Source: Spinacia oleracea
Lineage: Eukaryota > Streptophyta > Magnoliopsida > Caryophyllales > Amaranthaceae
Assembly (NCBI RefSeq): GCF_020520425.1
Contig: NC_079492.1
Span: forward strand, 2,046,001-2,110,000
Direction: 5' to 3'
Length of the DNA: 64,000 nucleotides
Shown one piece after another: positions 2,964 through 45,693 of the stretch. Both the position numbers and the translations under genes were made by a program. The first letter of the stretch is position 1. The number at the start of each line of letters is the position of its first letter. The notes below the pieces were generated by a model. It was not told where the DNA came from. It did no database searches and was given only the letters and a program-made list of their open reading frames with translations.

Positions 2964-3035
2964 AAACAGGAGTCACCCACAATCGAAAGCATCGAAAAGG
3001 GGGCTACTTTACCTAGGGTAGAGGCCGGAGGAGAG

Positions 3036-7125: not shown

Positions 7126-7527
7126 TTAAGAACTCGAGCCTGAGATGGAAACAAGGGAACCAGTCCATGGCATCCCTTTATGTCCATAATTCCAATCGTC
7201 CGGTGGTTCACCCCTTATTCCGACCGGTTTTAACTCCCTAGTGCGTAGATCATAACGAACAAAAGACAATATAGATTGACCTAACCCAATTAGGATTTCC
7301 GATTCATCCTCCGAATAAGCATACGGCATTGGAGGGAAAAAATATACAACCTCCCTTCTCCGACCAATAAGAAAACGATTTGGTACCAGTTCATCGTTTT
7401 CTACCGCTTGTTTGAGTGAGAGACGATGAATCAATTTAACCCATGTTCGATTCTTCTTCAAAACCCATACGTCCATTGTAAATTGTAACGTATACTTTAC
7501 TAAATGCAAACAACCCCTTATATCAAA
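7126..7527 (-). pseudogene. F-box gene, 3' half (F-box-associated domain)
   Basis: On the minus strand the readable chain is DIRGCLHLVKYTLQFTMDVW followed by a WVKL motif. It then has DESEILIGLGQSILSFVRYD and ends in SGSSS at the stop (7126-7128). DVWV plus WVKL is typical of the FBA C-terminal half in plant F-box proteins, substrate receptors of SCF ubiquitin ligases. Its N-terminal half lies at 9195-10137; a LINE separates the two. Upstream of about 7520 the frame meets a stop close to the insertion site. The gene is disrupted as annotated. Confidence 0.8.
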
Positions 7528-7531
7528 CTAA

Positions 7532-20387: not shown

Positions 20388-21463
20388 GTAATTAACTATA
20401 AGTCTTGTACAGTACGTAGTTAACTAGTTTGTAATTACTTGTAGTAGCTAGTTGTTTAGTTACAAACTACTTATACCATAAATGGATGTCCCTATTTGTT
20501 TGTTCAATACCTATTTGGTTTGAGGTTCTCACATGTCTCTCCTACGGAGCACCCATCCCCCTAAAATATAGAGTCTATTATCCTAATCCGATGTCCCTGA
20601 TGTGCCTATTTCTATTTTAAACCGTTAACTTTTTCCCATAATATCTTCGTAAAGAAATTGTAATGTTAATATTGTCCTTAAAAATTCAGATATTTGTACT
20701 TTGAAAACCGTACTATCTAATTTTTATTCAACCCATGTATTCGTTTTTGAGGGCCATTTAATAAGTTCACACTCCATCTCACACTTCTTTCTATTTTTCG
20801 AGCTCCAGCCCTCAAAATCCCAGCGTCTCTCTTCCGTTTTTCTCAATATTTTTTTTAGAAATCACTTGATGAGTTCCGTTGGTGGCCGAGATGGTGCATG
20901 TATACCCTTAACGATTCCCGTGTGGGGTAATAGTGGGTGAATATACGACTGACTTAGATATTTTTCTATGTTTAAAACGTATTTTTACATGGTTCGCCCA
21001 TTATAGAGATATATAATGAGCTTGATGTTGAACGGGTTGTGACATCACTGTTTTAATGCACCAATGACTTCGAACTTATGTAGTCTATCACTAGTGCCCT
21101 TGATCACATACACTTACTTGGCATGTGTCTTGCCTTGGTTTCCTCACTCCATTCTTATTGAAGGAAACATATAGATTGAGTTGGAAGAGAACACAAGTCT
21201 TTTGAGAATGTTTTCTTGTATTAAACTCTCGACTTGAATGTACAAATGATCTTTGGTGCCCGCCTATTTTCATGTTACTATCTTAAGTTTAGAAATAGCG
21301 GGTTTCGGACACATAATTAAAATCGTCCGAAGTTTGGCTATACCCGACATAAGGTCTAATTTGTAGAATGAAACCGATAAAGTCTCGAGCTAGTGGTTAA
21401 AATTAATGCATATGCACCAGTGTTACCTAATTTTCTCTAATCATCTCACGAACTGCGAACCGA
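20388..21463. other. Intergenic, no gene seen
   Basis: AT-rich DNA with only short unsupported frames. The last three bases, cga (21461-21463), are the target duplication of the CACTA element. Confidence 0.5.
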
Positions 21464-21844
21464 CACTAGAGGAAAAATTGCCATGTGCTTCCCTTCAAGT
21501 GCGGCTCTTTTGATAAATTGACAGCACTTGAGATCACAAAAAGAAAAAATATATATATTTTTCACAAATGCGGGCTCTTTTTAGAAAATTAGCAGCACTT
21601 GAGTTCAAGTGCGGGCTATTTTACGAAAGAGCCGCACAAAATATATCCAAAAAAAATTCATTTCCCCTTATCTCTCCTTCCTCTCCTCTGGTTCAACCTA
21701 ACTTCATTTTCCCGATTCTCTCTCTTCCCCTCTCTGGTTTCTCTCCTTCACCTCTATGGTTCTTCTCTGGGCGCGAAAACTTCCTTTACCACACCGCACT
21801 GTTGTTCCCCCACCGCCGCATCGCCGCATCGCCACAGAGGTTCC
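21464..21844 (+). repeat. CACTA left end: TIR, subterminal repeats, leader-like segment
   Basis: 21464-21640 has the TIR and three copies of agtgcgg(g)ctctttt...gcagcacttgag in both orientations. 21650-21844 is pyrimidine-rich, then GC-rich (ccgccgcatcgccgcatcgc), like a plant 5' UTR, and continues after the nested element at 32159. It could be the leader of a gene in the transposon; this is inferred from composition only. Confidence 0.6.
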
Positions 21845-23249
21845 TGTGAGGTTATGATACATATGACAATACATAAATCATGCGGAAAAACCATAAAGTC
21901 AGGAAAGCATATTATTTACACATAATCATTTAGCATAGTATAGATGCATACACTTTGTAGCGTGCCTTCCCTAGCTGCGCCCGAACCGAACAAGAACAAG
22001 TCTTTAGGACTCCAAGTGTCGTCCCTCCGTAGATAGTCCACAGTACGTCCGGATCCGCCTCAAGATTGACCAACTAGAATCGCCCTTAAGGTGCTTAGGA
22101 ATTTCGGTTATTATTGTGCAAGAGTGTGGCTGAATTTTCTTTCAAAAACTTACCCTTTGAATACTTCAATCGTTCGTATAAATTATGACCCTAGGCCCTT
22201 ATTTATAGAGGTTTGGAAAGGGAACTGGAATCCTAGTAGGATACGACTTAATTAAACTTAGAATCCTACAAGGACTCTATTTAATTAAATAATCCTAATA
22301 GGAATAGGAATTTAATCATACATCAAATCCTAATAGTTTTAGGAATTATGCATGGACACAAACACACACACGAGCATGACCCGCAAGCACGCAGGCCATG
22401 CCCGCGCACAGCCCACATGCCCACGAAGCCCATGCGAGCTACCGCAGCCCACGAGGCTGCCATGGCCTAAGCTGCGCGCTGGGCCTGCCTTGCGGTAGGC
22501 CTGCCGCAGCCTTGGGCTGTGTTGTGGCGCGCCATTGCTTGCTGGGCGATGGCCTGGCTTCGTGCTGGGCCTTCGTCCGGCAGGCCTCGTCCGATGCTTA
22601 TTCGTACGATACGCTTCCGATAAAATTCCCGGTTTTCGGAATTCATTTCCGATACGAACAATATTTAATATTTCCGATTCCGGAATTAATTTCCGTTTTG
22701 AACAAATATTTAATATTTCCGTTTCCGGAATTATTTTCCGATTCCGATAATATTTCCGATTCTGACAATATTTCCGTTTCCGGCAATATTTCCGATTCTG
22801 GCAATATTTCCATTTCCGATAATATTTTCCGATACGTACCATGCTTCCGTTTCCGGTAACATCTACGACTTGGATAATATTTATATTTTCGATACGATCC
22901 ATATTTCCGTTTCCGGCAATATCATCGTTTCCGGAGTATTCATTTCTTGCTTGTGACGATCTCAGCTCCCACTGAAACCAAGATTCGTCGATTCCGAATA
23001 TCCATAGATAGAGCATTTAATGCCATTAAATACTTGATCCGTTTACGTACTATTTGTGTGACCCTACGGGTTCAGTCAAGAGTAAGCTGTGGATTAATAT
23101 CATTAATTCCACTTGAACTGAAGCGGCCTCTAGCTAGGCATTCAGCTCACTTGATCTCACTGAATTATTAACTTGTTAATTAATACTGAACCGCATTTAT
23201 TAGACTTAACATTGAATGCATACTTGGACCAAGGGCATTATTTCCTTCA
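21845..23249 (-). repeat. LTR of the decayed copia (3' LTR in element orientation)
   Basis: Begins tgtgaggttatgatacatat and ends gggcattatttccttca on the plus strand. It contains a run of ttccgattccgg-type repeats (22620-22940) shared with copia-2 LTRs. Confidence 0.9.
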
Positions 23250-25511
23250 GTCTCCCACTTGTCCTTAGGGACAAGTGTGCATTTCCTAATTCCTTTGTCG
23301 CTCGATGCTTGCTCTTGAACATAAGGTAAGAGTTGTCATCCTTATTATGTCCAGAGGTGTTCCTCGGTTTCAGAGTTCAACTGATCAAATAAACAGATAA
23401 TCATAGCCTATGATTCATCCGAGCACGGCCATGCATTTCACAGTTTCTAGCTCTCCGAGTGGCCTTGTACAACTTTTAAGCATTTCATCCCGATTTATGG
23501 GAGGACAATCCCAATCTTGCGATCTTGAGATTAGACTTCGTTTGATAGGTGATTACCTGAGCGTTGCCTTTATAGCCTCCTTTTACGGTGCGACGGTTGG
23601 TCAACGTCAAAGCAACCAGTTCTCAAACAAGTAATCTCAAATCACTCAGGTATTGAGGATTTAGTGTCTAACAATTTTAATGAAATTTGCTTATGACAGA
23701 TTTTCATCTCTTACAGTAAAGTTTCATAGGTCTTGTCCGATACTAGTCTTCCCAAAGTAAGTATCTATGCAAATGATTATGACATTGTCATGTCCACATA
23801 GTTCAAGAAACAGAACTACTAGTCATCTTGCATTCTAGTCGTCTAACGTTTTCTATGCGTCCAATTTTATAGAAAACTCCGACTAGGGACCATTTTCAAC
23901 TTTTGACATTCAAGTTCACTTGATAGACATTTCTTAGTCACAGGACTGGTCCTGACAGTCTATCTTGAATATATTGTCAAATTGAAGGGACTCATCATTT
24001 AATACTAAACCAAGATTAAATGGAATATGAAAATACATTTCATGTATGATAAATGTTCAACCCCTAATGTTTTACAACCATGGGCCTCGAACCCATCTTT
24101 AAAATATTTCATGGAATTCAAAGCTATGCTTGATTTCCAGTGCTACAATGTGAGTGTTGCTTCTCACTTGTTGCATAGGTTTAGTTATCATGCTTTGCTA
24201 ATCTTAATATCCCTTTCATCGAATGTTTTTTTTTTTTTTTTTTGAGATAGGATGATAAGATCTTTTGAGTTTGTTTATTATGTGATCTAGTCTTTTTACT
24301 TAAATAGTGGTTCTACGCATTTTGCAATGAAGAACCATCAAGTCAGCAGACATGTGATCCAGCCAAGTTCAGTGAAGAACTTTTTTAATGTAAACAACTC
24401 AGTTTTATTGCTTCTTAGGCAATAAGTACTTCTACTTCAACTGTATAGGTTGCTAGTGATGCTTTGGTTTGGATTTACTTATCCAAGCAGTTCACGGATA
24501 TGTGGAAGACTTTCCAGCTGTATCTTAGAACATAGAAATTAATATTTAATTTCCCATGCAACAACTCATGGTCTCCAATCCATGTTGCCATTTCAAAACA
24601 CGGTGCTCTATAGCTCGTCCTTATCAATGGTTAACTCCAAAGGGTCTTGCTTGATCCTTTGCCAGTGTTTATGCGTGTAGCATCAATATTTATCATATCT
24701 TTATTTCCTTGAATCAAGAACTATTTCTATGTACCTTTTCAAGCACCATAAGTATTCTTGATCTCAATCTAGTTGATCTTCACTTAGATCAATAGAGATT
24801 GGTATATGTTTGTCATGCCTAAAGCCATACGATACATTTTTGGCGATCCTCATATTATATCATACATGATAAATTCTTTTGCAGAATAATTCCCAATTGA
24901 ATTCTATTCATGTAACTTTAGCTCATTCTAGTCTTAGTAGATACTGAATCTAGCTAAATTCTTTGACATATAATATAGGTTAAGAATCTCACTTAGATCC
25001 TTTGATGTTTAACTTAGTAAATTCTTATACATAGTTCAAACATTCATTACTTAGATTTATTCATATGGGTCGAATGTCTCCAATGGAGACTTTCGTGTTT
25101 GATTTAGTAAATGCCATTACTTAATCCAAAACAATATCATAAGATCTTTGTAAATAGATCTTAATATATACCCAGTATGTACTAAGTTTCGCCTTGGTCC
25201 ATCATTGATGAATAATTTCAAATCTAAGTCATTAGCATTTGAATGTTATTTCACAATAGAGAGATATGTGTGTGATACACACAGGACCAATCAAGTTTTT
25301 ATGTACTCCCACTAAACTTCTTATATATCTATAAGAATCATGTACATTTTATGAAACTAAAATACTTATTAGCTTAACTAAAATACATTTCTAATTCCCA
25401 ATTGCTTGCTTAAATCTGTACTTAGATTTCATAAGCTAGCTTTGCCTTTCAAGTATTTATTTGGATCCACAAGTCCTATGACATACCATGTACATAGTTT
25501 ATTCCAACATT

Positions 25512-25754
25512 TTATTGAGGAATTGTTTTGTCATCCAATTGCCATATGTACCAATATGCAATCATTGCTTGATTTATAGACTTGAGCATTACGATTATGC
25601 ATGAGGTTTCAACACAATCCACGCCGTGAATTTGCTTGTAACCTTTAGCAACTAATCTAGCTTTGTGTGTGAACACAATTTCATGTTTGATGGTTTTTAT
25701 CTTTAAAACCAATTTGCAACCAATAGGTGTGAAACTATTCTTGCAAATCAACAA
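25512..25754 (-). pseudogene. RT remnant of the decayed copia
   Basis: The minus-strand frame reads HKARLVAKGYKQIHGVD, then MLKSI and IWQLDDKT. This matches the copia-2 RT segment KARLVAKGYRQVHGVD ... MLKSI ... IWQMDVKT but with key parts lost (FSPVA replaced, AFLNG missing). It fixes the orientation and the position of pol in this element. Confidence 0.8.
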
Positions 25755-26150
25755 AATTTCAATTTTGTCATCAAAACATTGAGTATGTTTTATGGCCTCT
25801 GACCATTTAAAACATTTGAGTCTATATATGGCCTCTAACCATTTTAGGGAATCTGGGTTTCGTCATAGCTTTCTTACTGGTCACAAACTCATTAATCTTC
25901 ATGATAATAGTTTGACTGCAAGTTGTAGGTTTCTTTACTATCTAGTAGAAGAATTGCATAGCTTCAGTGACCTGAACTCCATGTTTCTTCACTATCTAAT
26001 AGAAGAATCTCATAGTTTCAGTGACTTGAACTCTATGCCTACTTGGGTATAGAACATCAAACAATAGAATATCAATAGCCACTTGAAAGTCCTTTGAATA
26101 TTCTGTTCTCCTTGAAGCACTTGTAAAGTCTTCTAAGAGATGTCTATTCT

Positions 26151-26366
26151 TTAAAAGCCACTTCTAGAGTCCTTAAAGAATACGTGTTCGGATTTTCTAA
26201 AGAACTTCGAAAAGCCTCCAGATTGTCCGTTTATGTTTGTTGTTCGCCTCGAAGACTTTCGAGGTCTATTTGTTTGTTGTTCGCCTCGAAGACTTTCGAG
26301 GTCTATTTTCTCCCACTTGTCATTTTGGAAACGAATCTCCAAAAGGACATTATTTCGAGCAAACAA
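26151..26366 (-). pseudogene. Integrase-RT linker remnant of the decayed copia
   Basis: The minus-strand frame contains NDKWEKIDLESLRGEQQTN, comparable with copia-2 MTSGRKVDLEEIRVEQQT. A direct repeat of gttcgcctcgaagactttcg occurs at 26241 and 26280, which has duplicated part of this segment. Confidence 0.6.
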
Positions 26367-29300
26367 ACATTATGTTCTCAAAAATTCGTGGTAGAAACAA
26401 TACCCTTGTGTCTCATCACAATGAAACATATATCTATACTTGGGCCTTAGTTTGTCGAATGACAAACACTAAGCTCCCACTGAGTTTTGCAACTCTCTAG
26501 ATATATTTTATGAAAAGTTATTCTGAAATTACTTTTCAATAGCTTTGACGAATTTGGTTTAGTTTGGTGGTAGCTGAGCATTTTGTTTTAGAAATTATAG
26601 GAAAAGTCTTTATGATTCATCATTGATCGAATCAAGTACTAATTGACTTCGATCATTCCAACGTAGATATGCCATATCTTATGGAGCTAGATTGTGAAAT
26701 TACAACACACAATCATTGATGATCATATTTGGTCTCAAGTAATCATCAACATGATCTAACCTAGATCTTTATGATTTCTTGCCAAGTGGATTTTATACTT
26801 CTGAATCTTTGAACTAGCCAAACAGATTCAACTTATATCACATTTGAGTAAATAAACCTATATTCACTCAAATCCATGTGAAATAATAAAGTCATAAAAT
26901 CTTTCTTTAGCTTTGAACTCTATTGTCTAGGCGTTCTAACAATAGTTCATATCTTTTGTTACTTTCAACAAGTAAGACTAGTTGTCTTAAATTGATTTAG
27001 AAATCAATGAACTTTCAAAAGTCCATCAAAATAGAGCTTTTGAATGTTAACTTATTGATATGGTCTAAGCAACAATGCCAAAGATTAGTGGAACTCAAAT
27101 CAAGGGGTTGATTTGAACTTAGTAAAGTTCTTTAAAGAGTTGTTTGTTTTAATCAAGCATATTGACTCAACCCGTAAATGACCATTTTATTCAAATAAAC
27201 AAACAAACAAGCATTGTTTTTGTTCTTCTGAATGTGAGTCTTTCTGTGTTTGAAGCATAAATTTAGGTATGCTGATTATGGAACAAAATAGCCATTAAGT
27301 TCCAGCCTTGAAAGGACTTAAAACAAACTAGATGACCCTACAACTAATGTAGCATTGCCATGCTTCATTTCCCACTTGTAGGTCATTAGTGTAGCCTAGC
27401 TTCCATTGTTTGAATTATTACCGAAGTAAGAACCTCAAGCGGTATATGATACCAAGGAAGTTTGATTGCTAGGTCACTTCTCTTTAAACATAAACTTATA
27501 GGTAGAAACGGAATCGTAAATTCCTTTCATTTGTTCCTTGTTTTGCTATTTCTTGTACCCTTTCTTATAATCTTAAGAATTGAATTCTATAGTGTTGACT
27601 TTTATACTTTGTTAGACATGTCCGATGTCATTCCAACAGAGTTCTTACCATTTTATTTATGTTGAATATTCTGTTTCAACTAGATGATCTTACCAGAAGC
27701 TTCTAAAGTTCTCTAAGCATCAATCTATTCGAATGTCTAGGGATTAGACTCATTCGAGAATTAAATGGACAAAGATATTAGGTTGTTAACCATTGGTAAA
27801 GCTGAGTGTTTAAACTCAATGCTTTATGATCTCAAAACTACATTGTATTTTGAATTCACAAGCACCAACCGGTTTGCCATCCGACTTTGATACTCGAAAA
27901 CAACCATAAAAGTCGCTAAAAGAAACGTACATTTTAAATCGCTCATTTTCTCTCATTTCCGTGAATCGTTCTTGAATTCACTACCAATCGAGGAAATTTA
28001 CTGTTACCTTTCTAAAAGGATTTATTGCAGTGCAAGATATTTAATTATAAACAATAATTAAAACATACATTGAAGCATGCAAAGTCTAAACATTTATCAT
28101 GAATAATAACTTGAAAATGAAAGCAATCATGCAATTTAAACAAGTCATTAGCATTTTATTCGAATTATGTGTTCCGGCAGGTGTGAATAAAATGATTCCA
28201 AGACCCTAAAACTATTGAAGAATTAAGCACAGTTTGTCGACTCAATTCTAAAACATTTTAGGTAAGCAAAAGCCTTTTGCTAATAGTCTAGAAACTACTC
28301 TTGGTTGATAGGTACGTCTAAGAACTTATTAGGTAAACCTATCGATTTTTCCACGACATAAAAGGACTCCTTACTTATATCGTTGAGTTTCACCAAAACT
28401 AACATGTACTCACAATTATTTGTGTACCTTGCCCCTTTAGGACCAATAAGTAACACCTCGCTGAGGGAAAACTATTACTAGATTGATGTAAAGGATATCC
28501 AAGCAAGTGTATATTTTGGCATGGCACCTTTTAACTCAATTTTTAAGTTTGGAACTTAAGGCTCTTACTATGTTGGTTAGATTTTAAGTGAACTAAAATC
28601 CTTAATCATGCAACATAATCAAGCTTTGATCTCATGCATATTTAAGACATATTTAAAAGCAATAAATAACTTAAAACATGCATAAGATAAATGTGATCTA
28701 GTATGGCCCGACTTCATCTTGAAGCTTCAACTTCAAAGTCCGTCTTGAAAATCTCCGTGGGAGGCACCATTTTCTTCAAATAGGATAAGCTATAATTACA
28801 ACTATTTGATGGTACGCAGACCATATTTTAATTGAAAAACAACTTTGGTACTTTAGACCAATTACATTCAAATTAATGGTTCGCAGACCATATTTTCTAT
28901 CCTATTTGGGCCATACTAGTCACTTCATAACCTGCAAAACAGTACATATACAATATATATACCATTCACCCATTCATTATCATGAATGGCCCACATAGCT
29001 GGTTAGTAGAACACATTATGCATCACATAAACATTTGTAGCAATTAATCAAGGGCACCAATAATCTACAAATTATTCAGTCCTTATTAATTCTAATCAAG
29101 TTGTTTTAACCTTAAGGATTTGTAGACCTAATCAAGAGTATATGACTAAAAGGGCTCCCACTTAAACCAATAAATTCATATGCTTTACTAATTTTAAACA
29201 TAAAAATGTATTTCTAGTCTAACCGGAAACATACAAATTTAATTAAAATTTAAAGCTCATATAAATTTATAATTGAATCCATAAATTTAATTTAATTTCA

Positions 29301-29489
29301 GTCGTATTTAAATTAATTCATGATTTTAATTTTAGTAAAATAATAAGAATAAATAAAATTTATTATAATTACAATATTCAAAATTAAAATCCAAGAAAAT
29401 AATTTAAATTATTAATTTTAAAATTAATTAAAATTACGTAAACTGAAAATTTCAAATTAAAATTTCAAAACGATCTAATCGCAACGCAA

Positions 29490-29990
29490 CAACCCCACGC
29501 AACGCACAACCATAGGCCACACGCACGCAGCCATCGCTGGCCATGTGCGCGCAGCCCATGCGCTGCGTCGCATTGCTGCTGCATTCCATCGCAAGGCATC
29601 CGAGGCATGCTTGGCCTCTGGCTCGCTGCGCGCCATCGCACGAGGCAGTGGCATGCGAGCTGGCGCTCGCTGCGCGCGAGCGATCGATGCTGGGCGTAGC
29701 ACTCGTGGCACGCGAGCTTGCTCTCGCTGCGCGCGAGGCTCCGCACGCTTGCGCGAGGCAGTGCGCGCTGTGGCGCAGCTCGCTTGCTGCCCACACGCGA
29801 CTGCTCGTGCCTTGCTCTCGCCCTCGCCCATTCGCCCATCGCACACAGCCCACGACACAAGGCAGGGCTGCTGCCTTGTGCTCGTGCACCATGGCCTTGC
29901 TCATTGCATTCGTACCGCATGGGCGACGAGCTCCCTTGCTCGTCGTCACATGCCCGCACGATACAACACCCCTTAAGGGTAACACGTAGC
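29490..29990 (-). other. GC-rich block in the leader of the decayed copia
   Basis: A roughly 500-bp block rich in gcgcgc, cgcgag and gctcgc motifs sits in very AT-rich DNA. Long ORFs in all frames are composition artefacts. The same block, longer, is in copia-2 at 46430-47120, so it is an element feature rather than a host insertion at this locus. Confidence 0.7.
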
Positions 29991-30752
29991 GTCCATTGCT
30001 TTGTGCGTGCAAGTTATATGAGCGAATCGCATAAAAATTTAAAATTTAGATTCAAAATTAATGACAAATTAATAAATAATATTAATTTCACAATTTTAGG
30101 GCGAAAAATCGAAAATTTATTATTTAATTGATTTCCGATTAACATGGATTCAAGTCTAGGTCATAAAAATTTTAAATTTAACATAAATTTACAATTTTTA
30201 TGGTGGTTTTTAATCATAGGTATCTAATTAAATTATAACTAATTATGAAAATCAAATTAATTCTAAATTATTCCAATTTTCAACAAATTAATCATAATTA
30301 CAAATTAGATTGCATAATTAACAAGGCTAGGCATTCAAACTTGTTAAACATATACAGTAGGTCAATCAAAAATTCAAGATTTATCAACAAGAATCGCAAA
30401 TATTTAATTTAACATCTTAAATTTACGAAATTTTGCATTCGAAAAACTAAAACCTCAGAAAAGTCATAGTTAGGCTTCGAATTTGAGAATTCTGGGTTCG
30501 GCCGAAAAATACAATTTTTGTCAAAATTTTAGAATGCCTTTTACATGCGGAATTGACACAAAAATCACTCGATTTGGATGAGTAACGAAGAAACTGCCGA
30601 AAAACTGCGTACGTATAATTAAATAAACGCAATTTGCAATTAATTAACAATTACGAAAATTAATCACCCCTTTTAATTCTTGCAAATTTGTAATATTTAA
30701 CCATGTTCATGCAATTTAGATTATGAAAATAATAAGAGGCTCGTGATACCAC

Positions 30753-32158
30753 TGTGAGGTTATGATACATATGACAATACATAAATCATGCGGAAAAACC
30801 ATAAAGCCAGGAAAGCATATTATTTACACATAATCATTTAGCATAGTATAGATGCATACACTTTGTAGCGTGCCTTCCCTAGCTGCGCCCGAACCGAACA
30901 AGAACAAGTCTTTAGGACTCCAAGTGTCGTCCCTCCGTAGATAGTCCACAATACGTCCGGATCCGCCTCAAGATTGACCAACTAGAATCGCCCTTAAGGT
31001 GCTTAGGAATTTCGGTTATTATTGTGCAAGAGTGTGGCTGAATTTTCTTTCAAAAACTTACCCTTTGAATACTTCAATCGTTCGTATAAATTATGACCCT
31101 AGGCCCTTATTTATAGAGGTTTGGAAAGGGAACTGAAATCCTAGTAGGATACGATTTAATTAAACTTAGAATCCTACAAGGACTCTATTTAATTAAATAA
31201 TCCTAATAGGAATAGGAATTTAATCATACATCAAATCCTAATAGTTTTAGGAATTATGCATGGACACAAACACACACACGAGCATGACCCGCAAGCATGC
31301 AGGCCATGCCCGCGCACAGCCCACATGCCCACGAAGCCCATGCGAGCTACCGCAACCCACGAGGCTGCCATGGCCTAAGCTGCGCGCTGGGCCTGCCTTG
31401 CGGTAGGCCTGCCGCAGCCTTGGGCTGTGTTGTGGCGCGCCATTGCTTGCTGGGCGATGGCCTGGCTTCGTGCTGGGCCTTCGTCCGGCAGGCCTCGTCC
31501 GATGCTTATTCGTACGATACGCTTCCGATAAAATTCCCGGTTTTCGGAATTCATTTCCGATACGAACAATATTTAATATTTCCGATTCCGGAATTAATTT
31601 CCGTTTTGAACAAATATTTAATATTTCCGTTTCCGGAATTATTTTCCGATTCCGATATTATGTCCGATTCTGACAATATTTCCGTTTCCGGCAATATTTC
31701 CGATTCTGGCAATATTTCCATTTCCGATAATATTTTCCGATACGTACCATGTTTCCGTTTCCGGTAACATCTACGACTTGGATAATATTTATATTTTCGA
31801 TACGATCCATATTTCCGTTTCCGGCAATATCATCGTTTCCGGAGTATTCATTTCTTGCTTGTGACGATCCCAGCTCCCACTGAAACCAAGATCCGTCGAT
31901 TCCGAATATCCATAGATAGAGCATTTAATGCCATTAAATACTTGATCCGTTTACGTACTATTTGTGTGACCCTACGGGTTCAGTCAAGAGTAAGCTGTGG
32001 ATTAATATCATTAATTCCACTTGAACTGAAGCGGCCTCTAGCTAGGCATTCAGCTCACTTGATCTCACTGAATTATTAACTTGTTAATTAATACTGAACC
32101 GCATTTATTAGACTTAACATAGAATGCATACTTTGGACCAAGGGCAATGTTTCCTTCA
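30753..32158 (-). repeat. LTR of the decayed copia (5' LTR in element orientation)
   Basis: Partner of 21845-23249. The two differ at about 15 sites by eye, for example acttggacc versus actttggacc near the end. Confidence 0.9.
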
Positions 32159-34785
32159 GTTCCCCCACCGCTCACCGCTGTTGTTCCCCCACTGTTGCGT
32201 CCCTACTGTTCCACACCGCCGTGTCGCTCCTCCTTGTATCTTAGGAGTTCAGGAACAATACTGCTTCCACTATGAAACCTAATGATTCTCTTCTTTGATT
32301 CGGTTCCAGTAATCCTGAGGTAATATTGTAATTAATGTCCATGTGATTTCAATTTTTCTTTCTTTGTTTGTGTATTATTATAGGGTTCTTATTGATTGAA
32401 GGGTGTAGTGTATCAAAATGAATCGTTTTGGGGTTTGTTTGTTGTTGTGATTATTAGATTTTGAAGTTTCCTTGAACCTAATTTTTCTGTATTCTATCAT
32501 ATTGGTTAGAGACACATAATTGTTTCTTATTTATTTTTTATAATTTGAATGATGGATTGTGGATATTCTAGAGAAGTGATGATAGTCCGTATAACTTTCA
32601 AATATAGTAGTAAAATAGGTAAGATAAAATAGAATAGGAAGCCTGTATAAGTTGTAGATGCAAGAGTATTTCAAATTCAATGACAGTAGTAGCATGTCTG
32701 TACACCAGGAAAGCACAAACCGAAAACTCGATAAACCTGGCATCTCTTATAACTTTTTAAAGCTAATTCTGTAAGCATTTAAAACTTTGTTCAGTATCTC
32801 TGTTCAGTCTTCACACAGCTCCACAAACTAAGGATGTCCTGATCCTAAGATTTACTTCTTCAATATTCAGTTTGAGTCTAGTCCTACTGGTTTGCCAAAC
32901 CAGTAAACCATTAGAATCTATCTAAGAATACTCTGGAATAATAGGTTTAGATTAAAATATGTTCAGCTGGAATGATGTAGGATTTTGGCCGTTAGAATTG
33001 CATTGTGAGCAGAACATCAATATCAACAGCTGAATTGCATTGTGAGCAGAACATCGATAACTAAAAGAGGCTTACAATAGTTTGATTAATCTGTGCTAGA
33101 TGTTATAACTATTCCTCTTCTATTTCTAGATTTAGTATTTTGTTTGTTTTTGTCTTATGTTTGATTCCTGTGTACATATCTAGTGGAAATATTCGTAGAT
33201 ATTAAAGCATCAAATGATTATCTACTTTTCAAGCACGAAGAAGTTCGCACAACCATAATGATAATGCAAATAGATTACGTCAACTCAAGGCTCATAGCAA
33301 TGAGCAAGTAAATTGAGGCTAGAGTAAGGTGGTGTGAAGAGGAAAGACAAGAATATCAAAGTTAGTATTGGACTGTTGCTGCTAATTACTGCTCTGCTTA
33401 CTGCTCCTGTTGTTTACTATTGCTGCATACTGCTCTGCACTCTAATCTGAACTTCTGTTGCTATTGTGCATCACTTATGTGTCACCAATATAGGTACTTA
33501 GTCTCATGTTGGTCTACAGAGCTGATGCAGTGTTGCAGCGGCTGGTGTGGGTGTTCAGGGCCGAAGTGTGCTTTGTTCTGGTCAGCAGTAGAAGGTTGTT
33601 GGATCCTGGTTATGTCTGGTTGCTTAAATTCAGTTGCAAGTTTGCAATGCTACCAAAACAAAGGGTCTTTAAAGCTAGATGTTGCAACCGCAAAGCTGCT
33701 AATTGTTCAAGTTTGGTAGGTCTTGACATCGGTTGACTTTTGTTGATTTTCTATTTGGGCTGTTGCGTTTGATCTGCACTGCTATGGTGTACATATCTTC
33801 TTTTCTACTGGGTGCATATAGTCAATTTATTTATCTACTTATAGGGTTTTATGTTTCTACCCTTTAAAATCCTTGCAATCTTATATCCTGCAATGCGATT
33901 TAGAAGCATATTGCTGCAAACTCTTCACTTTGAAAGATATTGCGTTGGAATTCGTAAAGATTAGCTTGCTCTACATGGAGCTTAAGAAGATTTATGAGGT
34001 TAGTTATTTGAGAATTTGCTCGTTTTTACCTTATGTTTATTTCTTCTGCACGTGAAGACATGGCATCACTTTTGTATAACTTAACAGTGTGCATGAACCA
34101 TTGTAACATACCAATTAATAAAATTCTATGTGTAAATTGTTCTTAAATAGTCTGCATATATAGAACTTAAACATTTGATCAACTCGGAAGTGTTAAAAGC
34201 GGCATTTTCACTTGATCAATAACTAGTGTTTTTGTATTATAATTATTTCATGATTGGAGGAATTCTAGAAACATGAACTTGTTAGATAGGAATTTCTTTC
34301 ATATGATCAAACAAGCCTCAAAAGTGCATAAGAGTGCCACCATTCCAGAAAGTTAAGCTTTAATCTAAGAGTGCTGGCACTCTTAGATTCTGATTAAGAG
34401 CATCGAAAGTTAAGCTTTTAAAATATATGCAGTTTCAGATATATGTTAGATCTCCATCCCCCCAAGATGGCTTAACCTTCTGGAATGAAGCCTTAATCTA
34501 GGAGTATGACTTGCCACATTTATGTTTCTGAACTTCTGATTATAGCTATAGTAAATTATGGTAATACCTTCTGGAATCATACTACATTATTGATGTACTT
34601 GTCTGTTGAACTTGTCACTTGTAGACTCCCTCTCACATTACAAGCCTTGGAACTATTTTGTTTCACTATTAGCACTATTGTTTTCTGATAAAATTGAAGA
34701 GGAAAAACTGGACTTTTTCGTCTTTTTCTAGGGGGGAAATGTCTTCAGTAATGCTCTAATTCTTGTATGTTTAACTAAAATGCAG
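32159..34785 (+). other. CACTA interior upstream of the ATPase exons
   Basis: Continues the leader-like GC-rich segment (32159-32230), with a possible splice donor after cagtaatcctgag at 32318. The rest is AT-rich with short frames. A stretch around 33180-33310 (VEIFVDIKASNDYLLFKHEE) follows a tatctag acceptor-like site but was not recognised. No transposase and no earlier ATPase exons were found. Confidence 0.45.
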
Positions 34786-35847
34786 GAACAATCATAGCAA
34801 TCTCTAAAGATCGTGTCAGACCATCTCCAAGCCCTGACAGCTGGAAACTGAATGAGATTTTTGTTACTGGTTGTGTCATCGGGGCATATCTCGCCTTAGT
34901 CACTATGTTATTTTACTGGGTCGTAAATGGCACAGATTTCTTCGAGGTAATAAAAAGGATTATAAAGTACTGCAGTTATTATATATTATATATGGACACT
35001 TGCTTTTCCTCATGCATATATTTATATATGTAAATCAACTGTAACAGGATAATTTGGGTGTGAGCTCTCTACCTAGAAACACAGAGAAAACTTCATCTGC
35101 AATATATATGCAAGTTAGCAACATTAGCCAGGCCCTCATCTTTATTACTCGCACTCAGAGCTGGTCATTTCTGGAGAGACCTAGAGTTCTTCTCATGTCT
35201 GCATTTGTGGTGGCGCAATTGGTAAGAAAAACTTCAAATATTCTCTTTTACCAGTTTCAATTTTTCTTTTCCTTGAACGTATTTCTTAATCTTAATCAGT
35301 TTCAAGTGTGTTCTAGTTCCTCCTTAAACTCATTATAGAGTACTAGGTGTTAGACATGTCTGTTTTCTGTATGTGTGACATGTTCCAGAGTGATATCTAT
35401 ATTTTTATTAAAATTTCCTTTAAAACTGCTATAAATAATGACATTACTCTCATGGCATCAACTAAAGCTATCGCTAATAGTTAAAATCTGGTGAAAAAAA
35501 AAATGTTGCTGCTTAGAGCTCTTACAACAAGAGACTCGAACATTCTCTCCTCATGGTTGTAGCCTGTAGGTTACTTCCTTGATAGAAGTTCTACTTTTAT
35601 ACTGCAGGCTGTTGCAAAATCACAATTTTCATAAACTGACTAGATAAATTGATTTTGCTCCTCACGTTTGCAGGTCGCCTCCTTTATTGCAGTCATTAAT
35701 TTTTCATCAATCAATGGGATTAGATGGGGATGGGCTGGAGTTATATGATTATATAGTCTGGTTTTCTATTTCCTTCTTGATATTATCAAGTTCGTAGTTC
35801 ATTACACCCTAAGCAAAGATGCTTGGAATCTTATAATTGAAATAAAG
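34786..35847 (+). pseudogene. Plasma-membrane H+-ATPase fragment, three exons (TM7-TM10 region)
   Basis: Exon a (34786-34946) reads [20 protein letters not shown] then GTDFFE. Exon b (35048-35221) reads [20 protein letters not shown] and [14 protein letters not shown]. Exon c (35674-35847) reads WGWAGVI, a stop, then LYSLVFYFLLDIIKF and SKDAWNLIIEIK. These match the P3A proton pump C-terminal membrane part (family: ISKDRVKPSP-PDSWKL, VSIVSQALIFVTRSRSWSF, GIGWGWAGVIWLYS). Introns keep gt...ag borders. In exon c the conserved Trp of VIWLYS is TGA (35746-35748). The P-loop, the phosphorylation Asp and the regulatory C-terminus are absent, so it cannot pump. It lies in sense orientation inside the CACTA element and was captured with introns, i.e. 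from genomic DNA. Confidence 0.88.
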
Positions 35848-35869
35848 GTCAGAATCAATATTATACTAT

Positions 35870-37545
35870 AACTTTGTATAACTTGACCAAAGTAGGTTAA
35901 AATGAGTCATTGAAACATAAAACCCATTATATTAAACATGTAGGTGTTTCAAATACTTATTTAGGTTCATTAGTTGAAAGTTGTGACCGAAATAAGCCAT
36001 TTTAGTCAAAATATGACCTATAATGATCAAAAGAGCCTTAAATGTGCATAATTTGACCAAATTAGGTGAGAGTGAATCTTATAAACAATAACTTAAGTCT
36101 TATAAACAAGTAAAGGGTTTAAAACAATTATTTAGATTTATTAGTTGAAAATTGAGAGCGAAATAAGCTATTTTAGTCAAAATATGACCTATAGTAAACA
36201 AACTATCCTTAAATGTGCATAAGTTGCCCAAAGCAGGTGAGATTTAGTCTTAGAAACATTAAAATAAGTCTAATAAACATGTAATGGGTTTTTATTACTT
36301 TTTAAGGTTCATTAGTATAGAGTTGGGACCGAAATAAGCCATTTCTAGTAAAACATGTGGCCTATAATGATCAAACGAGCCTTAAATGTGCATAACTTGA
36401 TTAAAGTAGGTGATAATAAGTATTTGAGCCTTAAAACTAAGTATATTTGACATGTAAAATATTTTAAATACTTATTTTAGTTCATTAGTTGAAAGTTGGG
36501 ACCGAAATAAGCCATTTTAGTCAAAATGTGACCGATAATGATCAAACGAGTCTTAAATGTGCATAACTTCACCAAAATGGGTGAGAATGAGTCTTTAAAA
36601 CATAAAAATAAGTGTAACAAACATGGAAAGACTTTAAAATATTTATTTAAGTTCATTAGTTGAAAGTTGGGGCTGAAATTAGCCATTTTAGTCAAAATGT
36701 GACCAATAATGAACTAACGCGGCTTAAATGTGCATAACTTCACCAAAATGGGTGAGAATGAGTTTTTAAAACATTAAACTACGTGTATTAAACATAGAAA
36801 GAATTTAAAATACTCATTTAAGTTCATTAGTTGAAAGTTGGGGCCGAAATTAGCCATTTTAGTAAAAAATATGACTGATAATGAACTAACGCGGCTTAAA
36901 TGTGCATAACTTCACCAAAATGGGTGAGAATGAGTTTTTGAAACATTAAACTAAGTGAATAAAACATGGAAAGACTTTAAAATACTCATTTAAGTTCATT
37001 AGTTGAAAGTTGGGACCGAAATTAGCCATTTTAGTCAAAATGTGACCTATAATGAACTAACGAGGCTTAAATGTGCATAACTTCACCAAATGGGTGAGAA
37101 TGAGTATTTGAAACATAAAAATAAGTGTATTAAACATGGGAACAGTTTAAAATACTCATATAAGTTCATTAGATGAAAGTTGAGACCGAAATTAGCCATT
37201 TTAGTCAAAATGTGACCGATAATGAACTAACGAGGCATAACTGTACATAACTTCACCAAAATGGGTGAGAATGAGTCTTCGAAACATAAAACTAAGTGTA
37301 TTAAACATGGAAAGACTTTAAAATACTCATTTAAGTTCATTAGTTGAAAGTTGGGACAGAAATTATCCATTCAAGTCAACATGTGACCGATAATGAACTA
37401 ACGTGGCTGAAATGTGCATAACTTCACCAAAATGGGTGAGAGTGAGTCTTTGAAACATAAAATTAAATTTATTAAACATGGAAGGCCTTTAAAATATTTA
37501 TTTAAGTTCATTAGATGAAAGTTGGGACCGAAAGTAACCAATTTT
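35870..37545 (+). repeat. 171-bp tandem array, about 9.8 copies
   Basis: The anchor gcataacttcaccaaaatgg and its variants recur with c of cata at 36047, 36218, 36391, 36562, 36733, 36905, 37076, 37246 and 37417, plus a diverged one near 35876. The period is 170-173 bp. Each unit also has ttcattagttgaaagttggg and gccattttagtcaaaat. The first copies are more diverged than the later ones. It directly follows the donor of ATPase exon c, so it would be intronic in a transcript of the captured gene. Confidence 0.95.
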
Positions 37546-37665
37546 ATTATTATACGGTTCATTATTTATTTGTTATGAACAAATTTAGTCTTAATTTATT
37601 GTACGATTCAATATTTATAATATAACTAAAGTGTATATTTTTTTTTGATGGTCTATCTTTTTAAG

Positions 37666-37761
37666 GTATTCAATAATCCGAGGGAGCGGCTTTTTACCTT
37701 TGAGGAGATAGATGAAGTTCGAGAAATGTTGGCAAACTTCATAACCAGTGATTGTCTTTGA
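37666..37761 (+). other. Possible terminal exon (unrecognised) after the array
   Basis: After a pyrimidine-rich tract ending in ttttaag, an open frame reads VFNNPRERLFTFEEIDEVRE then MLANFITSDCL and a stop (37759-37761). It starts in phase 0, matching the phase-0 donor at 35848. It is not the native next exon of a proton pump, which would continue with the cytosolic regulatory domain. The origin is unknown and the exon status is inferred. Confidence 0.35.
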
Positions 37762-37967
37762 TATTTTATTGTACTGAATCTTAAATTATGGATGCTAGCT
37801 AGTTTTTCATATGATTGTAATGTAATCGACTTTTATATTTACAATTATATACGATTTATTTTAATTATCTATATAATTGGATACTTTTTATATGACGTAT
37901 GGAGGTTAATCAGTGGCGTGGTCCAATTGTAATATGTAGCAGGGAAATCGATTATACAACAAATCTA

Positions 37968-38359
37968 GATCAAGTGCGGCTCATTTATAGGCCAAGTGCG
38001 GCTCATTTATATATCAAGTGCGGCTCATTTTTATGCTTGTGCTGCCCATTTCTATGTCAAGTGCGGGCTCATTTTCAAATTTGGCAGCACCAAATATGTC
38101 AAGTGCGGGCTCATTTTCAATATTGGCAGCACCAAATATGTCAAGTGCAGGCTCATTTTCAAAATTGGCAGCACCAAATATATCAAGTGCGGGCTCATAT
38201 TCTAAAATTGGCAGCACAAAATATGTCAAGTGCGGGCTCATTTTCGAAATTGGCAGCACTTGAGAAACATCAAGTGCGGGCAGGCCATGTGCTGCACATG
38301 TAAAAGCCCGCACTAAACCCCTTAAAATGAGCCCGCACTTGCGGTTTTTTCTTCTAGTG
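37968..38359 (-). repeat. CACTA right end: subterminal repeats and TIR
   Basis: Six or more copies of caagtgcgggctcattttca followed by an attggcagcaccaaatatgt block (about 43 bp). They end in the reverse TIR, cttctagtg. Confidence 0.9.
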
Positions 38360-39003
38360 CGAAAAGGCAAATTATAACATGAAAATGGTACAATTTTGGT
38401 CTAATCTCGCAAATTATGCAGCGAATTACAAACCCGTACCTAATCTCATACTAGCGAATCAGGTAACAGTGATCTGCACGATAAGTTAAACATTCAAATC
38501 ACTCCTCCAAACCTCCTCGATCAATTTGTAGAAAAAATTGGATTACAAAATCTTAGTACTAGATGGAATAATGGATTGCATTGATGGATTTTTTTTCAGT
38601 AGAAGGCGAGAAGTTGTTCTGATATGGGGCACTGTCCCCTTTTTAAACGGAAAGAATCTGATGAATTCTGAACCGAATTTGTATGCAAACATGTTCCAAG
38701 ACAAACAATATGGAATCTGTAAGACTGTAACACCACGATATATTATTATGTCCTATATTAGTACGTTATGTACTCATTTTATTTCTGACTTTCAAAGAAT
38801 TAATTCCATTTTTGGCAAACTGAGTTTTTGAAATTTATTATGTTTTTATTATGGGGTACATTACTTTACTCATTCGATCTTCTATAAGGCTAATAAATCG
38901 ATATGATAGGAAATTAAATTGTTCTAACAATTTCGGATAAGAGTTGATTAATGGTTGAAAATAAACTTTAGTCATTTAACATCACATCATAATGGTGATC
39001 TTA
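38360..39003. other. Spacer between CACTA elements, no gene seen
   Basis: Begins with cga, the second copy of the target duplication. Short frames such as the one at 38538-38831 have no recognisable features. Confidence 0.5.
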
Positions 39004-39687: not shown

Positions 39688-39784
39688 AAGTGATCATTTG
39701 ATCCTGCTAAAATTCTTCTTCCGTTCAGATTGATTGATCTTTCACAATTTGATCAAATTTTTTCTTTGAAATTGCAAATTCAAA

Positions 39785-42700
39785 ATGCCTGCAGATCAAA
39801 CAGATTCATCTCAGAATCCAAACTCTGCTTACTATCTTAGTAACAGTGATTTAAATGCCACGAAATTGGTGAGCATTGAATTTGAAGGAAAGTTTTTCAG
39901 TGATTGGAGACGTTCAATGATGATAGCTTTATCAGCAAGAAACAAGCTGTGTTTTGTTGATGGCAGCTTGAATCCACCAGCAGCAAATTCTCAAAATTAT
40001 AGGATGTGGAATAGGTGTAATGATCTGGTAATTTCATGGATGTTAGCATCACTGGAACCAAAAATTGCAAGAAGTGTTTTGTATCTCAAAACAGCAAGGG
40101 CAATATGGCTTGAACTAGCAGATAGATATTGTAGAGAATCTGGACCTCAGTTGTTTTCTGTTCAACAACAACTCAGTGAATTAAGTCAAGGAGATGATGA
40201 GGAAGTTTCTAGTTTCTTCACAAAGATCAAGATGCTATGGGATCAGCTTGATGGATTAGAGCCTTTACTTGTCTGTGAATGTACTGGGTATAGCTGTAAT
40301 CTCACTCAGCAGTTGCTCAAAACACAGCAGAATCAAAGATTGATTCAATTTCTGATGAAACTGAATGAAAAATATGAGCATCCTAAAAGCACTATTCTCA
40401 TGATGAATCCTCTTCCTACAATTTCGAAGGCATATGGTTTGCTTTTACAGGAAGAACAGCAGAAAGAAGTGCACAATCACAAGACACAAACACAGACTGA
40501 ATCTGCAGCATTCAATGCTAGAAGATTTGACAACAACAAGCCATACATGAATCAGTATAACAACAATTCTAACTCTCAATATGCAGGCACTGGAAATCAA
40601 TTCAGGAACAACAACAATAACAACAGGAATAGTCTCTTTTGTGATCACTGCAAAATGAGAAATCACACTATTGAGAAATGTTGGAAACTGCATGGTTACC
40701 CCAAAGATTTCAAGGGAAAGGGCAAGAGAATAGCAGCAGCTGCTCAATTAGATGAGTACACTCCTAAAGAGGTTCAGACAGATACAGAAGGACCAGGAGT
40801 AGTACATGCCACATTTACTGAAGAACAATACACTCAGTTGATGAATTGTTTGCACAGTCAACAAGTTGCTAACCAAGCAGAGAATTCTGGCTCTCACTCT
40901 CTTGGCTTAGCAACTAGCTACCAACCTCAAGGTACATTCTGTCTCATGTCTAATTTTAACAATCAATGGATTCTAGACAGTGGAGCTAGTGATCACATGT
41001 GTTCCAATATATCTGAGTTTCACTCTTTTGAACCTGTTTCTGATGGTAATCACACTATAACTATACCTGATGGCACACAACTACAAGTTAAACACAAAGG
41101 TACCATACATCTAGCTGGGGGAATCACACTTAAAGATGTTCTTCATGTTCCAGGGTTTAAATTTAATCTGGTTTCTATCTCCAAATTGTGTTGTGATGCA
41201 AACTTCTCAGTCTCATTTACCAATGGCAACTGTTTTATTCAGGACCCTTCCAGGAACAAGCATATACAGCTTGGTAAGATGCAGAAAGGATTGTACACTT
41301 TGTGTGAAGAATTCTTGCTTTCAGACTTACATTTAGATTCAAATAAGTTTGCTCTTTCTACTATTAGTTCAAAAGCAGTTCAAGAAGCCAAACTGTGGCA
41401 TTTAAGACTTGGACATATGTCATTTGGGAAAATAAAGAATGTACAGGGTTTGGATGTAAAGGGTTGTTTAGCTGAGTCATTTTGCCAAATCTGTCCTTTG
41501 GCTAAGCAAACTAGACTTTCATTTCCAACTAGTTGTATTAAAACTACTCAGCCTTTTGAGCTATTGCATATAGATGTTTGGGGACCATATTCCATTTTGG
41601 ACTCATCTAAGTGTAATCAATTCTTAACCATTGTTGATGATTACACCAGAATGACTTGGACTTATTTCATGAAAAGTAAAACAGATTCAGTAAAGATCAT
41701 GGCTCAATTTCTTGTTTATGTTGAAACACAGTTTAATTTATCAGTTAAGGGGATTAGATCAGATAATGCCCCTGATCTTACAGAAGGAGCAATGAAGGAA
41801 TTGTTTCTCACTAAGGGTATTCTAAACCAGAAAAGTTGCAGCCATACACCTCAGCAAAATGGTGTAGTAGAAAGAAAACATAAACACCTTCTTGAAACTG
41901 CTAGAGCATTGGCTTTTCAATCCAAATTGCCTGACAAATACTGGGGTAGTTGTGTCCTCACTGCTACTTACCTCATTAATAGAATGCCATTGAAAAGCAT
42001 TAACTTCTGTACACCCTATGAAAAGCTCTTCCACACTAAACCTGATCTTTCCCACTTAAAGATCTTTGGTTGCTTGTGCTACATTACCACTGTCAAAACC
42101 AATAGATCCAAATTTGATCCAAGGGCAGATCCCTGTGTCTTTATTGGTTATCCTCCCAACCAGAAAGCTTACAAGGTATTGAATCTAGCCACTAACAAAA
42201 TAATTGTTTCCAGGGATATTTTCTTTCATGAGAAACATTTCCCTTTTCACTACTCTTCCACCCCCAAGTCCACCTATTCTACCAAATTCTTTCTTCCTGT
42301 TTCTACTTCTTTTTCTGATTCTGTTTCACTCTCTCCACTTTTCCAAACTCCTACTTCTAGTTTTCTTTCTGAAACTCCATCCAATATACCAACAAATACA
42401 CCATCTTCTCCATCTTTATCTCCAACAGATTCTATCCCACATGATCTGTCTACTCACTCTGTAGTCACACCAGATTCACCTCCTATCTCACATACAAACT
42501 CTTCTATTCCTACTATTAGAAGGTCAACAAGAGTCTCAAAAGCACCTTCTCACCTTCATGATTTTGTTTGTTCTAAACCTGTCAAACATTGGTGTAACAT
42601 AGTTTCTTATGCCAGTCTTTCTGATGCTCACAAAGTTCTTATTGCTGCTCATATGGCTCACATTGAGCCAACTACTTACAAGGAAGCTGCTGGTGACAAC

Positions 42701-44341
42701 AATTGGCTTCTGGCTATGGAAAATGAGATCACTGCTTTGGATCACAACCACACTTGGGATTTTGTTTTGCTCCCTAAAGGCAAGAAAGCTATTGGTTGCA
42801 AATGGGTTTTTCGAATTAAAAAGAATGCTGATGGTTCTATAGAAAGGTATAAAGCTAGGCTAGTTGCCAAAGGGTTCACACAAAAATATGGTATTGATTA
42901 CCATGAGACCTTCTCTCCTGTGGTCAAGATGTCCACTGTCAGATGTCTTATTTCCCTTGCTGCTTGTAGAAAATGGAAATTGTTCCAATTGGACATCAAT
43001 AATGCTTTTCTCCATGGAAACTTAGATGAGGAAGTTTACATGAGGGTTCCTGAAGGTGTTACTGCTCCTGTTGGACATGTATGCAAGCTCAATAAATCAT
43101 TATATGGCCTTAAACAGGCTTCTAGACAATGGTTTGCTCGACTTTTGGATGAATTAAAAACCCAGGGCTTCACACAATCATAGAATGACTATTCTTTGTT
43201 TATTAAACATGACAATAAAGACATCACTGTGGTTGCTGTTTATGTTGATGACATAATCATAACTGGCTCTAATGAAGCAACCATTCATGCTCTCAAAGCT
43301 CATCTGCATCACACCTTTAGCATCAAAGACCTTGGTCTTCTCAATTTTTTCCTTGGCATTGAGATCAGTCACACTCCTGAAGGTTATGTTCTCACTCAAA
43401 GGAAGTACACCAAAGAATTGCTCACTGATTGTGATCTTGACATCTCCAAACCTGCAGTCACCCCTTTTCCTCTCAATTTGAAGCTCACCTCTGAAGGAGA
43501 TCCTTGTCCTAACCCTGATTTGTATAGGTGCTATGTTGGCAAGCTCAATTTTCTCACTCACACTAGACCTGATCTGGCTTTTGCAGTTCAATCTCTCAGT
43601 CAGTTTATGCACTCTCCTAAAATCTCTCATCTTGCTGCTCTCACTCACACTCTTAGATATGTGAATCACACAGCTGGACAAGGTATTTTGCTCAAAGCTA
43701 ATGATCAACTCACTTTGCAAGCTTTCTCAGACTCTGATTGGGCTGCATGCCCTTCAACCAGAAGATCAGTTACTGGTTATGTGCTTCTTCTTGGTAACTC
43801 TCCCATCAGCTGGAAGTCCAAGAAACAATCCACTATCTCGAGAAGTTCATCTGAAGCTGAATACAGAGCTATGTCTCAAGCGGCAAGTGAGGTCACTTGG
43901 ATGGTTAGACTCCTTGAAGAATTAGGGATTACTGGTTTGCAACCTGTTAAGCTTCACTGTGATAACCAATCTGCATTACACATTGCTAAGAACCCTATTT
44001 TTCATGAACGAACTAAGCATATTGAAGTGGACTGCCACTTTACTAGAGATAAAGTTCTTGAGGGACTTCTCCAACTCAGTTATCTTCCAACCACCAATCA
44101 ACTAGCTGATATCTTTACCAAAGTTCTCCCTAGTCCACAGCACAGAATTCTGTCTTCCAAACTTGGTATGATCAATGTTTTACCCATACCAAGTTTGAGG
44201 GGGGGTGTTGGTGTATACTCTCCTGTTGCCACTGCTAATCTTATTCTCTCTTCCATTCTACACACGATCAAGGCAAGGCACAGCATTACAAGCAACATCA
44301 ACAATGAGCATGATCAAACAGCAATACAGCATTCTAGATGA
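39785..44341 (+). pseudogene. Copia-1 Gag-Pol polyprotein with one in-frame stop
   Basis: One frame from ATG 39785, broken only by TAG at 43181-43183. Order: Gag; zinc knuckle CDHCKMRNHTIEKC (about residue 286); protease LDSGASDHMCSN (about 397); integrase HHCC (LWHLRLGH ... CQICPLAKQ, from 538) and catalytic D, D, E in HIDVWGPY, IRSDNAPDL and NGVVERKHKHLLE; RT from about 1005 (CKWVFRIKK, QLDINNAFLHG). After the stop come YVDDIIITGSN and RNase H (FSDSDWAACPSTRRSVTGY, SSSEAEYRA). The stop falls between two RT motifs and cuts off the YVDD active site and RNase H. The frame has no stop before the PPT and runs into the 3' LTR. The visible end at 44339-44341 lies in the inserted copia-2 sequence. 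Confidence 0.9.
44206..44338 (+). repeat. 3' LTR of copia-1, left part
   Basis: Begins tgttggtgtatactctcctg after the G-run. It is cut at 44338 by copia-2; the remainder is at 54756-55081. The duplicated ctaga occupies 44334-44338 and 54751-54755. Confidence 0.9.
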
Positions 44342-45678: not shown

Positions 45679-45679
45679 G

Positions 45680-45693
45680 TGGTATCACGAGCC
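45680..45693 (+). other. Primer binding site of copia-2
   Basis: tggtatcacgagcc, a variant of the initiator-tRNA-Met PBS (tggtatcagagc) with an extra base, one base after the LTR end. The same variant occurs in the decayed relative near 30738-30751, so it is a family feature. Confidence 0.7.

Follow-up and report, generated by a model that had tools for sequence, protein, structure and literature searches.

Within a stretch of 64,000 nucleotides from spinach (Spinacia oleracea; contig NC_079492.1, positions 2,046,001 to 2,110,000 of the forward strand; hereafter the window), exons of a plasma-membrane P3A H+-ATPase are located between the two ends of a CACTA transposon. The question raised by this locus is whether the pieces of a proton-pump gene belong to the transposon or to the site in which it landed and, if they belong to the transposon, from which gene they came, how often they were taken up and whether they still serve any purpose. 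The account favoured here, and one that is very probably correct as a whole, is that of a non-autonomous CACTA element carrying a dead fragment of a host H+-ATPase gene, with one capture at the DNA level, amplification in trans, a hybrid joint between two subfamilies and a split by a Copia retrotransposon.

The CACTA element, its cargo and its copies

The termini of the element were found to be CACTAGARGAAAAA on each side, and CGA flanks both of them; the two CACTA ends, the 3-bp duplication and the subterminal repeats pointed out in a preliminary description of this DNA were all located (Table 1). With CACTA-type inverted ends, a 3-bp duplication and both direct and inverted subterminal repeats, the element belongs to the CACTA superfamily. 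Of nine other loci examined, eight contain the core motif of the subterminal repeats and one, the donor gene described below, does not; in the examined part of one copy, C1_8, the motif occurs as a single unit. Of the 16.9 kb between the ends, 10.3 kb represent a later-inserted Copia retrotransposon that the preliminary description had overlooked. Once this is subtracted, the CACTA element proper measures about 6.6 kb and consists of the left end, the left interior, the ATPase piece, a tandem array, a stretch with an open reading frame (ORF) of 31 amino acids and the right subterminal repeats. The longest ORF of the CACTA part encodes 135 amino acids, no transposase was recognised by Pfam among five of its ORFs, and no stretch resembling the long copy C6_58 was seen to the left of position 34733, the side on which the transposase of C6_58 lies. 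The window element is non-autonomous, is devoid of a transposase and fits the type known as Pack-CACTA (Pack-TYPE).

As for the cargo, the three exon-intron units proposed earlier, corresponding to transmembrane segments (TM) 7 to 10 of a P3A H+-ATPase, were confirmed. Their joined translation, with X at the stop codon, matched residues 675-832 of Arabidopsis AHA2 (PDB 5ksd) with an E value of 5.2e-55. Pfam gave no ATPase match for the two single-exon ORFs tried, and the identity of the cargo as an ATPase rests for this reason on the AHA2 match together with the donor gene. Comparison with the donor added a fourth exon, the damaged relic of TM5-TM6. The fragment does not encode a functional P3A H+-ATPase, as had already been concluded from the in-frame TGA: only relics of TM5-TM10 are present, the TGA is confirmed and the catalytic exon is missing.

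Searches for copies covered the window's own genome (894,210,420 bases). The DNA of positions 34600-35860 gave 11 matches, namely the window itself, six further copies with 85-98% identity, two pieces (88% and 83%) of a gene on contig 1 at 131.99 Mb, and two short matches on contig 2 with 77-78% identity across 87 bases. The ATPase fragment was found in seven elements, window included, distributed over four contigs. Both ends can be read in six of the seven, and each of the six has a matched 3-bp duplication (CGA in the window, AAA in C4_91, TAA in C1_8, CAA in C6_103, AGT in C4_96 and TCA in C6_58); in the seventh, C3_73, the left end has lost its first bases to an adjoining long terminal repeat (LTR). 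In all six testable copies the element boundaries enclose the ATPase sequence, the outcome that the preliminary description had expected of a captured cargo. The copy nearest to the window element is about 97% identical to it; for C4_91, its sister on contig 4, identity reaches 96.7% across 366 and 97.3% across 6256 aligned columns when the Copia is left out. It is clear that the element moved together with its cargo, since the copies occupy six separate sites, each with a duplication of its own.

The donor gene and the number of captures

The donor was traced to the H+-ATPase gene on contig 1, which was read over 20 kb (C1:131988765-132008764). Exons and introns of this gene align with the cargo in the same order, in two blocks of 86.8% and 83.2% identity, and this second locus with the same introns supports the earlier proposal that the capture was made from genomic DNA of a parent ATPase. 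Exons from the N-terminal part through TM10, including the one encoding CSDKTGTLT, are readable by eye and give the impression of an intact gene. The C-terminal region of the donor appears unusual, with a short and altered regulatory domain as judged by eye, that lacks the usual YTV ending. Neither CACTA end found a match in the 20 kb read. The same 20 kb around the gene contained no match to the 171-bp array, which rules out the array as an ATPase intron.

In all seven copies the homology to the donor ends at one and the same point, position 15002 of the donor stretch read, and the junction between gene intron and array is identical. The copy C3_73 extends furthest upstream, to donor position 12520, so that no less than about 2.5 kb was captured; the version in the window has been shortened. 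A search with the last captured exon of the donor yielded 17 matches (19 candidates), made up of the seven transposon copies, all with the TGA, and ten gene loci, none with a stop codon. Because the TGA and the gene-to-array junction are common to all seven copies, the simplest history is that of a single capture with subsequent amplification. The capture did not take place in the window element itself; it was inherited and is common to the seven elements.

Several observations weigh against a single capture from this donor or leave parts of it less secure. The segment 34328-34489 is shared with the ATPase-bearing copies C1_8 and C3_73 and is counted as captured solely on that ground, no donor match being detectable for it. 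In the evolutionary tree, the window element groups with C4_91, C1_8 and C3_73 (support 100/100) and C6_103 with C4_96 (92/95), while the deepest fork, joining C6_58 to the other copies, is left open. A 9-bp deletion is common to six copies and missing from C6_58; this conflicts with two 2-bp deletions in dinucleotide runs that C6_58 shares with C6_103, deletions of the latter kind probably being more prone to recur. Furthermore, exchange among the copies could blur the number of captures and, with a donor only 83-88% identical, the true source could be a paralogue since lost.

The events leading to the first fragment-bearing element may be outlined as follows. The segment, which derives from the ancestor of the contig 1 gene with exons and introns together, would have been copied once as DNA, most likely via gap repair or template switching after excision; copying is favoured since the donor remains in place without a CACTA end nearby. 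The fragment-bearing elements would then have been mobilised in trans by a transposase of the Transposase_21 type. Both transposition in trans and the copying of a fragment along with its element are well established for CACTA transposons.

Table 1. Features of the CACTA element in the window (positions of the window; TIR, terminal inverted repeat)
Feature	Positions	Strand	Basis or remark
CACTA element	21464-38359 (16,896 bases)		Matched inverted ends and flanking duplication
Target-site duplication CGA, left copy	21461-21463		Read from flanking sequence
Left TIR (CACTAGAGGAAAAA...) and left subterminal region	21464-21839	+	97% identity in copy C4_91
Nested Copia LTR retrotransposon	21845-32158	-	LTRs 21845-23249 and 30753-32158; outside the capture
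Left interior	32164-34302	+	Common to ATPase-free elements C2:81658160-81664431 and C3:38690460-38692978
29-bp remnant of a 171-bp array unit	34303-34331	+	E 4.6e-5; its end is the joint of two subfamilies
Captured H+-ATPase fragment, introns retained	34328-35862	+	Donor homology spans 34490-35862
TM5-TM6 exon relic, damaged (fourth exon)	34490-34560	+	Donor comparison
ATPase exon ending in TDFFE	34786-34946	+	Splice sites, AHA2 match
ATPase exon ...GVSSLPRN...FVVAQL	35048-35221	+	Splice sites, AHA2 match
ATPase exon VASFIAV...NLIIEIK	35674-35847	+	Splice sites; contains in-frame TGA
In-frame TGA (TGG in donor)	35746-35748	+	7/7 transposon copies, 0/10 gene loci
171-bp tandem array, 9.7 units	35878-37546	+	CACTA family sequence
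Small ORF VFNNPRERLFTFEEIDEVREMLANFITSDCL, 31 amino acids	37666-37758	+	CACTA family sequence, in both ATPase-free elements read
Right subterminal repeats	37970-38345	+	22/42-bp units at 37970-38259
Right TIR CACTAGAAGAAAAA	38346-38359	-	Reverse complement terminates at 38359
Target-site duplication CGA, right copy	38360-38362		Read from flanking sequence

The transposase-spanning copy, the hybrid joint and the nested Copia

The most diverged copy, C6_58 (C6:58953728-58974476, minus strand), is a complete element of 20,749 bp flanked by TCA/TCA, and between its ends are found ORFs with the domains Transpos_assoc, Transposase_21, DUF4218 and DUF4216 on the strand opposite to the cargo. This transposase gene is broken, being divided by a TGA and by frame changes. 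A capture within a transposase-bearing element of the C6_58 kind, from which the short elements would have been derived by deletion or as hybrids, has about an even chance of being right. The completeness of C6_58, its four transposase domains between matched duplications and its lack of the 9-bp deletion of the other six copies agree with such an origin, as does a locus at C5:87.78 Mb where a right end and a transposase, 7 kb apart, have the same opposed arrangement as matched by eye; the open fork of the tree and the conflicting small deletions speak against it, and so does a lone CACTAC-type left end inside C6_58 at -1318, which permits a nested second CACTA, with its other end not recognised, as the possible owner of the transposase. 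To the left of C6_58, a helicase-like ORF that has the P-loop GPGGTGKT and resembles a Helitron helicase (read by eye) hosts the 20.7-kb copy. The CACTA family is large, as judged from the candidates counted in the genome, which number 876 for the right end and 393 for the left (40 of each scored) and 1375 for Transposase_21 (150 scored).

The two halves of the window element have different relatives. On the left, the ATPase-free element C2_81, complete with the duplication TCC/TCC, matches the window at 32578-33549 (96.4%) and 34086-34330 (97.1%), and a second ATPase-free element, at C3:38.69 Mb and adjoining a left end, matches 32166-34330 at 94%; from 34328 rightward, the window resembles C1_8 and C3_73. 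Since the halves match different elements, the window element and C4_91 contain the joint of two subfamilies at 34328-34331, and the window element would have arisen when the left half of an ATPase-free relative was joined, with an overlap of 3-4 bp, to the right half of an ATPase-bearing one. The 29-bp array remnant ending at the joint runs on into a whole unit in C2_81. No piece of the array lies to the left of the cargo in five of the seven ATPase copies, so the layout with the cargo within the array is confined to the window element and C4_91. The small ORF to the right of the array was also considered as a captured exon, which is ruled out by its occurrence in both ATPase-free family members read.

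In C2_81 the main array is preceded by one isolated unit, and the two are separated by unrelated sequence of about 1.57 kb (2982-4549 of the stretch read), possibly a second captured piece. A broader interpretation, regarded here as doubtful, is that the array is a recurrent site of uptake, its breaks being repaired from unrelated templates, as would agree with unrelated inserts at the array edge (the ATPase fragment, the 1.57 kb of C2_81 and the interior of C2_53), and that the ATPase fragment, which is present even in the transposase-spanning element, may persist because small RNAs against this fragment would hurt the host.

The window element was split by the Copia retrotransposon at a later stage. 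The insertion is flanked by the duplication GTTCC (21840-21844 and 32159-32163) and is absent from C4_91. Its LTRs are 98.8% identical (15 mismatches and 2 gap openings in 1417 columns), and its reverse-transcriptase remnant scores 30.2 bits, slightly below the Pfam cut-off of 31.6. Assuming about 1.3e-8 substitutions per site and year, insertion of the Copia would date to about 0.4 million years ago and the window element and C4_91 would have separated about 1 million years ago, both being rough figures only.

Two more Copia elements lie to the right of the CACTA element. One of them (44339-54750, plus strand, with LTR starts at 44339 and 53411 and a long open pol frame at 48518-52540) is related to the Copia nested in the CACTA element, with up to 98% inverted identity. 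The other (39770-44335) has gag, integrase and reverse-transcriptase domains across two frames; probable pieces of its LTRs, at 39227 and 44206, border on the former element at 44338/44339, which suggests that the two are nested. Elsewhere in the window, a Gypsy-type LTR retrotransposon that encodes gag, RVT_1 and RNase H domains and shows a strong A-over-T skew occupies 819-4469, and a reverse-transcriptase remnant of the non-LTR type (zf-RVT, RVT_3) abuts a minus-strand ORF for an F-box protein (7482-9146 and 9109-10176). At 61530-62012 an ORF encodes a glycine-rich protein that apparently has a signal peptide.

Fate of the cargo and relation to known elements

The ratio of nonsynonymous to synonymous substitution rates (dN/dS) was calculated by the method of Nei and Gojobori for 15 pairs of copies, the six pairs involving C4_96 being excluded because the first approximately 38 codons of this copy are not ATPase sequence in that region. 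Among the copies dN/dS ranged from 0.84 to 3.27 with a median of 1.26, single values being noisy as the synonymous changes per pair are few (1-13.5). The comparison of six copies with the donor gave 0.49-0.69, as expected if constraint acts on the donor side only. Frameshifts were seen in C4_91, C6_103 and C6_58. With dN/dS about 1 among the copies, selection on a cargo protein is not supported; the cargo drifts as a dead passenger and makes no working pump.

Any effect of the fragment would act through RNA. A role as a source of small or antisense RNA acting on the parent H+-ATPase gene, or as a 'camouflage' from silencing, is an unlikely explanation for the fragment: the idea has been put forward for captured fragments in general (PMC13317346, PMC8978399), and the multi-copy fragment has about 1.2 kb in common with a gene that appears intact, but an identity of 83-88% leaves few long perfect matches, and dN/dS near 1 means the absence of upkeep at the protein level and is silent on RNA. 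It is very unlikely that the fragment forms a selected transposon protein or an exon-shuffled chimera spliced to the CACTA ORF at 37666. The window copy has splice sites that look usable, and the boundaries of the ATPase exon and of the small ORF fall between codons, which would in principle allow in-frame splicing; against this stand the TGA in every copy, frameshifts in several copies, a dN/dS among copies of about 1 or higher and the presence of the small ORF in ATPase-free elements. Insertion of a CACTA element in or beside an ATPase pseudogene, so that the gene pieces would be part of the locus, could not be told from capture given one copy alone, but has next to no likelihood with the fragment lying between both ends and within matched duplications at six unrelated sites and with the contig 4 sister being similar across its entire length, and the independent copies rule out the ATPase pieces as locus sequence.

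The spinach element has counterparts among other plant transposons. Tgm-Express1 of soybean and Tpn1 of morning glory are reportedly CACTA elements with intron-containing fragments of host genes, other than the one found here, and are said to have been studied experimentally. The Pack-CACTA (Pack-TYPE) elements of Arabidopsis, rice and maize are likewise non-autonomous, with CACTA ends, a 3-bp duplication and host coding DNA (PMC8903248, PMC13317346). Hybrids formed from neighbouring copies are proposed there as a route of DNA acquisition (PMC8903248, PMC13317346), the joining of neighbouring elements having been suggested as the capture route for Arabidopsis Pack-CACTA in one of them (PMC13317346). 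This route may apply to the spinach capture as well. In comparison, the spinach cargo appears larger, has introns and lies beside a 171-bp array, and one of the related copies apparently contains a transposase.

In the same plant family, the Chenopodium CACTA element 'Jozin' has CACTAG ends and captured gene fragments beside a full transposase (PMC8978399). The transposase gene of 'Jozin' is given there with TAD, Transposase_21, DUF4218 and DUF4216, the same domain set as in C6_58, and the element also carries a 171-bp array close to one end (PMC8978399). Its cargo consists of fragments of Neprosin and AP2, and an ATPase is not mentioned in the text (PMC8978399). Identity of the spinach array with the satellite of the quinoa CACTA array is unsupported: the comparison, made with the printed quinoa unit as transcribed, 169 letters long (PMC8978399), gave a score of 26 against a mean of 23.8 and a maximum of 33 for 100 shuffles. 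A fragment of a plasma-membrane proton ATPase is likewise carried by maize Bs1 (PMC13317346). Bs1 is an LTR retrotransposon and acquires sequence via RNA, whereas the spinach case is that of a DNA transposon with introns kept.

The preliminary description was right that gene capture by CACTA elements is known, and this extends to the same plant family; as to its suggestion that this cargo may be undescribed, no description of H+-ATPase capture by a CACTA element was found in a limited literature search covering titles and abstract openings. The spinach element is a clear, well-traced case of a known process, Pack-CACTA gene capture, and not of a new kind. It involves the same kind of gene as the classic Bs1 case of maize, in another class of element and with the introns kept, and changes no general picture. 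Its value lies in an unusually complete record of one gene capture by a plant DNA transposon, comprising the donor, the capture joint, the shared TGA that dates the event, daughters of differing age, a Copia-free sister, the hybrid joint and a transposase-spanning copy. Since the donor, the joints, the shared TGA and copies of different age are all present, the order of events is testable.

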